DNA from: a bacterium
GTDB lineage: Bacteria > UBP18 > UBA7526
DNA length: 9,893 nt
NCBI GenBank assembly: GCA_030619985.1
Contig: JAUXAI010000047.1
Span: 1-9,893 of the forward strand
Reading direction: 5' to 3'
Shown: one piece after another, positions 416 through 7,031 of the stretch
Numbering within the stretch: position 1 is the first letter of the stretch
Layout: each line of letters begins with the position of its first letter
The notes under the pieces: generated by a model
The model's database searches: none
The model's input: the letters and a program-made list of their open reading frames with translations, nothing else
What the model was told of the DNA's origin: nothing
Position numbers and translations under genes: made by a program

Positions 416-1531
416 TTGGAAGAGAGGCTGAAAAGAATAAAGGGAGAGGCAAGAAGAGAACTCGATAAAGCCAAAACCCTTGAAGATCTGGAGGCCTTGA
501 GAGTAAAGTATCTGGGAAGGAAAGGCGCCCTCATTCTCTTTATCCGGGAAATAGGAAAAATGCCTAAGGAGATGAGACCTTCCTTAGGAAAACTGGCCAA
601 TGAGATAAAGAAAACCTTAAATCAAAAGATAGAAGAAAGAAAAGCAAAGGCTAAGGAGAGGCGGGTCCTGGCTCCTTTAGACCTCACTCTTCCCGGGAAG
701 AAGCCCTCCCTGGGTGGGCTCCATCCCATAACCCAGGTCTTGAATGAAGTCACGAGAATCTTTTCCAGATTAGGCTTTCGCATCGTCCAGGGCCCGGAGA
801 TAGAGACGGACTACTATAACTTTGAGGCCCTCAATATGCCCCCGGGGCACCCAGCAAGAGGGATGCTCGATACCTTCTACCTTGAAAAGGTCACAAGCCA
901 CATGATACGTATAAATCGGGGAATCGGGGAATCGGGGAATCGGGGATCATCTTCTCCGTCTCACCGTTTCTCCGTGTCCCCGTTTCAACATTCCTGCAGC
1001 CAGTTACTACTTCGGAGCCACACCTCTCCTGTCCAGATACATGTTATGGAGAAGGAGAAACCTCCCATCCGGGTCATTTCTCTGGGCAAGGTATATAGGT
1101 ATGAGGCAGTGGATGCCAGCCACTTACCCATGTTTCATCAGGTGGAGGGGTTTATGGTCGATGAGGGAATTAGTTTTTCTCATTTAAAAGGAGTATTAGA
1201 GGTCTTCTTAAATGAATTATTCGGCCCCAAGACTCCCGTTCGTTTTCGCCCCTCCTTCTTCCCTTACACCGAGCCTTCTGCCGAGGTAGATATCGGCTGT
1301 CTCATCTGTAAAGGAAAGGGGTGCTCTGTCTGCAAGAGAACCGGCTGGCTGGAGATCTTAGGCTCCGGGATGATCGATCCTTCCGTCTTTAAAGCGGTAG
1401 GCTACGATCCAGAGAAGTATACCGGCTTCGCCTTTGGTATGGGAATAGAAAGAATCGCCATGCTTAAATATAATATCAACGATATGAGACTCTTCTTTGA
1501 GAACGACCTGAGGTTCTTGAGGCAGTTCTAA
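416..1531 (+). CDS. pheS: phenylalanine--tRNA ligase alpha subunit, with in-frame repeat insertion
   Basis: This is the catalytic alpha subunit of the (alpha-beta)2 phenylalanyl-tRNA synthetase, which charges tRNA-Phe in the cytoplasm. Residues 1-85 form the N-terminal coiled coil. The class II core follows: LHPITQVLNEV (102-112), GHPARGMLDTFYL (144-156), motif 2 GKVYRYEAVDASH (224-236), FHQVEGF (240-246), the Cys pairs at CLIC and CSVC (295-306), and motif 3 GFAFGMGIERIAML (337-350). The start is TTG at 416, chosen for the AAGGAG at 404-409 and the match to the family N-terminus. At 371 aa it is about 30 residues longer than usual bacterial PheS. The excess lies at residues 157-196, between DTFYL and LLLRSHTSPVQ, and is low-complexity sequence encoded by repeat DNA. 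All core motifs on both sides are intact, so the enzyme is probably functional. Confidence 0.95.
   Translation: MEERLKRIKGEARRELDKAKTLEDLEALRVKYLGRKGALILFIREIGKMPKEMRPSLGKLANEIKKTLNQKIEERKAKAKERRVLAPLDLTLPGKKPSLGGLHPITQVLNEVTRIFSRLGFRIVQGPEIETDYYNFEALNMPPGHPARGMLDTFYLEKVTSHMIRINRGIGESGNRGSSSPSHRFSVSPFQHSCSQLLLRSHTSPVQIHVMEKEKPPIRVISLGKVYRYEAVDASHLPMFHQVEGFMVDEGISFSHLKGVLEVFLNELFGPKTPVRFRPSFFPYTEPSAEVDIGCLICKGKGCSVCKRTGWLEILGSGMIDPSVFKAVGYDPEKYTGFAFGMGIERIAMLKYNINDMRLFFENDLRFLRQF
914..986. repeat. AATCGGGG tandem repeat element inserted in pheS
   Basis: Four exact tandem copies of AATCGGGG occupy 914-945. A C/T-rich arm at 951-986 follows, with CCGTTTC twice and the words TCTCCGT and CCGTGTCCCCG. 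The G-rich units and the CCCCG arm are partly complementary, so the element could fold on itself. Because the unit is 8 bp, the three frames rotate and give the peptide NRGIGESG followed by NRG. The element lies wholly inside pheS and keeps the reading frame without a stop codon. Its exact borders are uncertain; bases 884-913 and 987-1005 may also be non-native. Confidence 0.8.
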
Positions 1532-4668: not shown

Positions 4669-4825
4669 AGTTCCCTGCTCTAGCGCGTGATGCGGCAACA
4701 ATTTTGAGTCGACACTTCTAAACTGGGGACCCGAGTCGGGGAAGAAATTTCCTGGCGACTAGTAGGGTACCCACTTGGCGTAAAGCCGATTCAAAAGTTT
4801 CCACACACGGCCTGAGCGGGGAACT
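4669..4825 (+). ncRNA. ssrS: 6S RNA
   Basis: 6S RNA mimics an open promoter and binds the housekeeping-sigma RNA polymerase holoenzyme in slow growth. Bases 4671-4680 (TTCCCTGCTC) pair fully, with one G-U, to 4814-4823 (GAGCGGGGAA), and the pairing extends to 4669/4825, forming the closing stem. The internal words GAGTCGACACTTCTAA on the 5' side, and ACCCACTTGGC followed by GATTCAAAAGTTT on the 3' side, line up in order with the E. coli stretches GAGCCGATATTTCATA, ACATTCACCTTG and GGTTCAAGGGTT, as I recall that sequence. The length is near 157 nt, close to the family range. The location between zapA and rarA/5-formyl-THF cyclo-ligase is the classic 6S site. A T-rich run (4825-4833) follows. 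The exact ends are inferred from the stem and the promoter. Confidence 0.9.
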
Positions 4826-4833
4826 TTTCTTTT
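4814..4833 (+). terminator. probable 3' end of 6S RNA, stem arm plus T-run
   Basis: The 3' arm of the 6S closing stem is followed by CTTTTCTTTT. No compact local hairpin sits directly before the T-run. Termination or processing would therefore have to use the long-range closing stem, and a standard intrinsic terminator is not certain. Confidence 0.4.
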
Positions 4834-4835
4834 AA

Positions 4836-4943
4836 GACGCGAATATACGCGAACTGTAAAGCAGAAACGGAAGATAACTAAAACACGAATCAACGCGAAT
4901 AATCCGTGCTAATCTGTATTTTAGATCTGTGCTAATCTGTGTT
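4836..4943. repeat. composite repeat: CGCGAAT decamers plus ATCTGTG units (copy 2)
   Basis: The element fills the gap between 6S RNA and rarA. CGCGAA(T/C) occurs at 4838 and 4848, then CACGAAT at 4884 and CGCGAAT at 4894; each pair is spaced exactly 10 bp and the pairs are 46 bp apart. Bases 4836-4877 match 6832-6873 at 40 of 42 positions by eye. A second module follows: a 19-base unit at 4902-4920 and again at 4925-4943 (17 of 19 identical), built on ATC(C/T)GTGCTAATCTGT. CACGAAT (4884) and ATCCGTG (4902) are near-inverted, so the junction could form a small hairpin. With 6S RNA this explains the whole 338-base gap after zapA. Confidence 0.8.
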
Positions 4944-6326: not shown

Positions 6327-6855
6327 AGAACCAGAAGATCTGAGAGGAAAAAAGAGTCGCAGAATAAAAAAAAGGCTCTTCTCTCTGAAGGAGTTTAAAG
6401 AGGCCCATACCATCCTCTTCTACTACTCAAAAGGGAGCGAGGTAAAGACAAAAGAGATGATGGAGGAGGCCCTCAGGAAAGGAAAGAGAGTCCTCCTTCC
6501 CAGGGTAAGGAGGAGGGAGATCTACCTGGGTGAGATTAAAGAGCTGGAGAAGGATGTAGAAAAGGGAAGCTTTGGCATCCTGGAGCCTAAAGAAGCCTCT
6601 AAGAAGGCAACACCCAAAGGGATCGATCTGGTCATCCTTCCGGGGATTGCCTTTGACCTAAAAGGGAGAAGGGTAGGATATGGGCTGGGATACTACGATC
6701 GCTTTCTAAAAAGGTTACCCAAAAAGGTTTCTCTCGTTGCCTTAGCCTATGACTTTCAGATAGTGAATAGTCTCCCAGGCAAGAGGCATGATAGAAGAGT
6801 TGGGAAGGTGATAACAGAGACGCGAATCATTGACGCGAATCTACGCGAACTGTAA
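6283..6855 (+). CDS. 5-formyltetrahydrofolate cyclo-ligase
   Basis: This enzyme (MTHFS; ygfA/fau in E. coli) converts 5-formyl-THF to 5,10-methenyl-THF with ATP in the cytoplasm, returning a storage or inhibitory folate to the active pool. The product is 190 aa. N-terminal RRDKEPEDLRGKKSRRIKKRL matches the family pattern. Further marks are VLLPRV (66-71), GSFGILEPKE, IDLVILPGIAFDLKGRRVGYGLGYYDRFL (the nucleotide- and folate-binding signature, about 119-147), and HDRRVGKVITETRII near the end. GTG at 6283 is preferred over the upstream TTG at 6262 because of ribosome-binding-site spacing and the family N-terminus. The gene overlaps rarA by 44 nt. The final residues DANLREL and the stop are read from CGCGAAT repeats, an unusual C-terminal extension. 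Together with FolD downstream it points to one-carbon folate metabolism. Confidence 0.93.
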   Translation: MKRRVREKILSRRDKEPEDLRGKKSRRIKKRLFSLKEFKEAHTILFYYSKGSEVKTKEMMEEALRKGKRVLLPRVRRREIYLGEIKELEKDVEKGSFGILEPKEASKKATPKGIDLVILPGIAFDLKGRRVGYGLGYYDRFLKRLPKKVSLVALAYDFQIVNSLPGKRHDRRVGKVITETRIIDANLREL

Positions 6856-6953
6856 AGCAGAAACGAAAGATAATCAAGACGCGAATCTACGCGAATTACA
6901 ATTAATTATTTTCATTATCTGTGATCTGCGGAAATCTGTAATCAATCTGTGTG
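6821..6953. repeat. composite repeat: CGCGAAT decamers plus AATCTGTG units (copy 3)
   Basis: CGCGAA(T/C) occurs at 6821, 6834, 6844, 6880 and 6890. The pairs 6834/6844 and 6880/6890 have 10-bp spacing and are 46 bp apart, the same geometry as copy 2. Bases 6832-6873 are the near-identical partner of 4836-4877. The second module is looser: an AT-rich stretch (6895-6916), then ATCTG words at about 6917-6951, including AATCTGTG at 6944-6951. The first 35 bases lie inside the cyclo-ligase reading frame and supply its last residues and stop. No gene is visible in 6856-7031. Confidence 0.8.
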
Positions 6954-6954
6954 A

Positions 6955-7004
6955 ACCCCGCACCTTTTTAGAAATCGTTTCTCAAAAAGGCAAAGGTGCG
7001 GGGT
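6955..7004. repeat. palindromic hairpin element upstream of rny
   Basis: ACCCCGCACCTTT (6955-6967) is the exact reverse complement of 6992-7004, a perfect 13-bp stem. A competing inner hairpin also exists. CCTTTTTAGAAA (6963-6974) pairs with TTTCT (6978-6982), a bulged C (6983) and AAAAAGG (6984-6990), around the loop TCG. AATCTGTG flanks the element on both sides (6944-6951 and 7006-7013). No T-run follows, so it is not an obvious terminator. It ends 14 nt before the rny ribosome-binding site and would lie in the 5' leader if rny is cotranscribed from upstream. Confidence 0.8.
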
Positions 7005-7031
7005 GAATCTGTGATGAAAAGGAGGAGATAG

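Follow-up and report, generated by a model that had tools for sequence, protein, structure and literature searches.

The pheS gene of this bacterium carries an insert that is most probably (a probability of roughly 0.8) a copy of a mobile hairpin element, small and non-autonomous, that belongs to this bacterial family, and this reading has direct support from the dispersal of the element, its in-frame copies inside genes, the empty site in relatives and its hairpin potential. The window, i.e. the whole stretch of 9,893 nucleotides that was analysed, is one whole contig of the source genome (G000; 1.25 Mb, 91 contigs).

The insert in pheS and its architecture

The pheS frame gave clear profile scores (PF01409, E 1e-102; TIGR00468, 359.8 bits with a cut-off of 237 bits), and none of the named relatives aligned with the protein exceeds 61% identity to it; they are Nitrospinota, Desulfobacterota and other MAGs, none from Rickettsiales. 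The original prediction of four exact AATCGGGG units in an uninterrupted PheS frame was borne out, as the units start at 914, 922, 930 and 938, the complementary arm comes next and the whole gene is open (Table 1). An insertion between DTFYL and LLLRSHTSPVQ, where homologues were said to have a short loop, was likewise seen in the alignment with close relatives. Two genomes of the same genus (G001 and G002) and one of the same family (G003) lack the insert and read DTFYL-TKNT/SKNT-LLRSHT. Its size had been put too low at about 30 residues, the net gain being 36 codons (371 aa vs. 335 aa in these three relatives), and the predicted 73-bp element is the core of the insert rather than its full extent of about 117 bp.

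Table 1. Positions of pheS and of the parts of its insert in the window
Feature	Position	Strand	Basis
pheS, phenylalanine--tRNA ligase alpha subunit, 371 aa, intact	416..1531	+	open frame; PF01409/PF02912; TIGR00468
Long-form repeat element inside pheS, inverted orientation (B arm first)	887..1003	+	missing from G001/G002/G003; ends as in long form elsewhere
Left outer inverted repeat GGTCACAAGCCACATG (other copies: GGCCACAAGCCTCATG)	889..905	+	long-form copies L236, L257, L263, L233
B arm, four exact AATCGGGG units; doubles as G4N4 x4 G-quadruplex motif	914..945	+	
A arm in reverse, CCGTTTCN-type octamers	952..985	+	pairs with B arm
Right outer inverted repeat AACATTCCTGCAGCCAG (other copies: AACATTCTTGCAGCCT)	987..1003	+	long-form copies

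Twelve ungapped copies gave the 73-bp core consensus TGAAACGGAGAAACGGAGAAACGGAGAAACGGAGAAAATCTCCGATTCACCGATTCACCGATTCACCGATTCA. The core has a repeat period of 8 and is built of two arms with four octamers each, in which 3-bp blocks (CGG/CCG and GAA/TTC) pair with a mismatch at about every fourth base. Complete copies have one GGNGAAAC-type and one GGNGAATC-type arm in a fixed relation, and the pheS copy is inverted. In the long form the core is extended by imperfect outer inverted repeats, roughly CAGGCnrCAAGnATGTT; the core consensus runs from TGAAAC to GATTCA, and the long form from CAGGC to GCCTG. The outer ends match the pheS insert at both sides, covering essentially all of the inserted DNA.

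The pheS segment folded better than all of 200 dinucleotide shuffles (RNA, -46.6 kcal/mol, z -4.1; hairpin folding as DNA, z -2.9), showing that its repeat structure is more than chance. With the arms in register 73% of the core positions were paired, compared to 31-68% when the arms were slid. Two-sided base-pair changes (covariation) were not observed across the 12 aligned cores, thus the pairing of the arms rests on sequence symmetry. The element is not unusually free of stops: 46% of its frames were open, compared to 68% for dinucleotide shuffles and 38% for the surrounding DNA. An element that is stop-free by design was ruled out by the higher share of open frames in the shuffles, and since a typical copy is open in nearly half of its frames a special coding design is unnecessary.

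In the AlphaFold model the PheS core is confident and the insert, located between strands 154-157 and 196-199, has a pLDDT of 31-43. The insert is thus predicted to form a disordered loop at the tip of a beta-hairpin, in line with the tolerant loop site suggested earlier. The alignment with Thermus PheS breaks at the same loop and resumes 15 residues on, as compared to two or three in most bacterial chains, and as judged from this alignment the Thermus loop is also somewhat longer. To call the insert domesticated is too strong a wording, as nothing shows a function for the peptide.

Elsewhere in the window a 6S RNA was found at 4669-4826, just downstream of zapA (RF00013, 54.7 bits, above the gathering score); it was seen when the stretch was searched alone and missed by a fast-filter scan of the whole window. 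An AT-rich 187-aa ORF without Pfam match lies at 1619-2182, between pheS and pheT, and is preceded by ACGCGAAT repeats; the corresponding gap in G003 is too small to hold such a gene. Repeat phrases of other kinds (ACGCGAAT, AATCTGTG, CGCAGAAG) lie between genes at 1533-1589, 4836-4943, 6826-7015 and 327-410, and some of them have inverted arms.

Copies in the genome and its relatives

A degenerate octamer-array pattern gave 29 matches in G000 and 0 for the reversed control, and 1-27 matches per genome in five relatives (controls 0). Further copies, as implied by the original prediction, were thus present, both inside and outside genes. The best BLAST match to the pheS insert within its own genome had 83% identity over query positions 28-108 (E 3e-17). 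An exact 16-mer was rejected as a family probe, as it matched pheS alone in the genome because the units vary between copies. About 19 array sites were assigned in G000: four internal in-frame sites, one at the Obg C-terminus, about six in prepilin/GspK leaders and about eight intergenic (approximate counts, the genic status being taken from open frames, homology and Pfam domains).

The internal in-frame copies of G000 are found in pheS and in the genes of a PD40-Omp85 protein, a clostripain-family protein and a Wzy_C-TPR protein. In the relatives they are found in GatB (G005), where additional residues are present compared to 3h0l, in a GDP-mannose pyrophosphorylase-like (ManC-type) nucleotidyltransferase (G004) and in a Peptidase_C25 protein (G002). 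The Obg C-terminus bears a copy in both G000 and G005, and some of the prepilin/GspK leaders start at the ATGAAACGG of the element itself. Cleavage and variability are features of prepilin leaders, and we infer that both fit with the element being tolerated there.

Other in-frame repeats were seen as well. A second in-frame repeat-like insert, ARRSPVADRRSPVAGRK, is present in G005 GatB (L235:639-2138); the closest GatB with a solved structure lacks it. Another repeat family, GFTPLAGIFPATVRKNSLSPLEGKQ, lies in-frame in the Wzy_C protein L017 (G000:C46, residues ~240-310) and has many further copies in the bacterial family, several of them with stops. At L265:2252-3016 a 23S rRNA intervening-sequence-type protein is joined in-frame to a prepilin via an octamer repeat.

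Origin of the insert

Copies in three relatives (G005:C63, G004:C191 and G002:C35) share 85-95% identity over 113-135 bp and are located at non-orthologous places; the alignments stop at the element borders and the flanks are unalignable over 3 kb. Such near-identical copies at unrelated places argue that the element moves. Other copies have been kept in place across genera, for instance a copy that in both G000 and G004 precedes the gene for purine nucleoside phosphorylase (71/73 identical, flanks 84-85%), thus inheritance explains part of the distribution.

At the pheS site itself, G004 has a different repeat with AGTCAAA-type and CGTCCCTC-type units, and G003, which lacks an insert, adjoins G004 and G005 in the family tree. 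One ancestral insert shared by G000 and G004 was rejected, as the local similarity between their inserts was equalled in 58 of 500 shuffles, i.e. without significance, and as a single gain would require at least three losses on the tree. Two separate gains would be the simpler history and are favoured by the tree over one gain followed by these losses. The divergence between empty and filled pheS sites is too great to define a target-site duplication.

Different repeat phrases occupy the same tolerant sites (the PD40-Omp85, Wzy_C and pheS genes) in different relatives. This would also be expected if the element were immobile and generated locally, with replication slippage and hairpin templating building octamer arrays at tolerant sites, so that loops, linkers and leaders gather whichever repeat phrase is locally favoured. 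The varying array lengths and the many one-armed arrays are consistent with such a process. However, the orientation-specific A/B asymmetry, the 73-bp length and the outer ends are common to copies at unrelated places and go beyond slippage alone, and we consider local generation unlikely.

A selected function, i.e. control of pheS or modification of its enzyme by the insert, its mRNA hairpin or a G-quadruplex, could be read from the stable hairpin and from the G4N4 x4 motif, which is present in 8 of 73 array sites and perfect in the pheS copy. Three relatives without the insert, an unrelated repeat there in G004 and the predicted disorder of the peptide make this very improbable. That a misassembly stitched the repeat into pheS of this fragmented genome is barely credible, as the other genomic copies are at most 83% identical over most of the length, the frame is preserved across 108 extra bases, the trkA-pheS-pheT order is as in G003 and G004 has an independent insert at the same site.

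Taken together, these results are best explained by a mobile hairpin element. The hairpin would be copied to new places by an enzyme supplied in trans, and most insertions would be neutral or harmful. The sites seen suggest that in-gene copies may persist only if their length is divisible by three, the frame is stop-free and the site is tolerant, i.e. a loop, a linker, a terminus or a cleaved leader. The pheS copy would then encode an added loop, predicted to be disordered and with a putative function at most.

Occurrence in other bacteria

The octamer-array pattern was found in 49 of 386 genomes, with many copies in a few unrelated families (G375, 80; G102, 36; G358, 28; G248, 26). These arrays are mostly of other flavours, e.g. 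GGAGACAC, and partly hairpins; the wider period-8 arrays are likened to the window element by pattern, and common descent is not implied. An in-frame copy in MetH of G368 lies in a linker that is longer than in 9ssp. Another, in LeuS of G181, lies in a variable loop; the protein is not lengthened compared to Thermus LeuS and is thus weak evidence of insertion. It is possible, as a tentative proposal, that octamer-array hairpins form a class of mobile, protein-coding repeats, widespread but undescribed, which settle again and again at the same tolerant protein sites in distant bacteria and replace each other over time.

To our knowledge, the in-frame spread of repeats through genes was formerly described as unique to Rickettsia. 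The PheS, GatB, Obg and prepilin copies, from an unrelated lineage, give an independent case for asking how frequently new protein segments arise from small repeats, and offer orthologous sites where unrelated repeats supplanted each other.

Comparison with known repeats

Rickettsia palindromic elements are described in PMC10969869 (citing Ogata et al. 2000, 2002) as palindromic, ~100-150 bp, dispersed and in-frame in unrelated housekeeping genes. By that description the window element behaves alike, being dispersed, palindromic and in-frame in unrelated genes; it differs in coming from a lineage outside Rickettsiales and in its octamer arrays with A/B asymmetry. The parallel drawn in the original prediction thus holds for behaviour, although in-gene palindromic repeats were already known outside Rickettsia (PMC3733652, PMC2759123). 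Intragenic GTAG/CGTC REPs are palindromic, occur in genes of several bacterial groups and encode ~20-30 residues (PMC3733652). The window element is likewise a palindromic repeat inside genes, but REP units are 20-40 bp and tagged GTAG or CGTC (PMC3733652), whereas it is 73-117 bp and has neither tag at its ends.

Bacterial MITEs, e.g. ERIC/RU fused to ORFs, are 70-300 bp with terminal inverted repeats and no transposase gene, and some form in-frame gene fusions (PMC2759123). With 117 bp and imperfect outer inverted arms the window element falls within the 70-300 bp and 15-30 bp terminal-inverted-repeat ranges; like MITEs it has no transposase gene and shows some in-frame gene fusions, and its arms differ in being octamer arrays. 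Heptameric GGGAATC and GGGGA(C/T)T repeats of Xanthomonas and Nostoc are also short, G-rich, tandem and sometimes inverted units with G-quadruplex potential (PMC4692102). Their unit is 7 compared to 8 here, and they are described as intergenic simple repeats whereas the window element is fixed, two-armed and found inside genes. A description of this octamer element was not found in our search of openly accessible papers. The window element is an unnamed variant of a kind of repeat already known.
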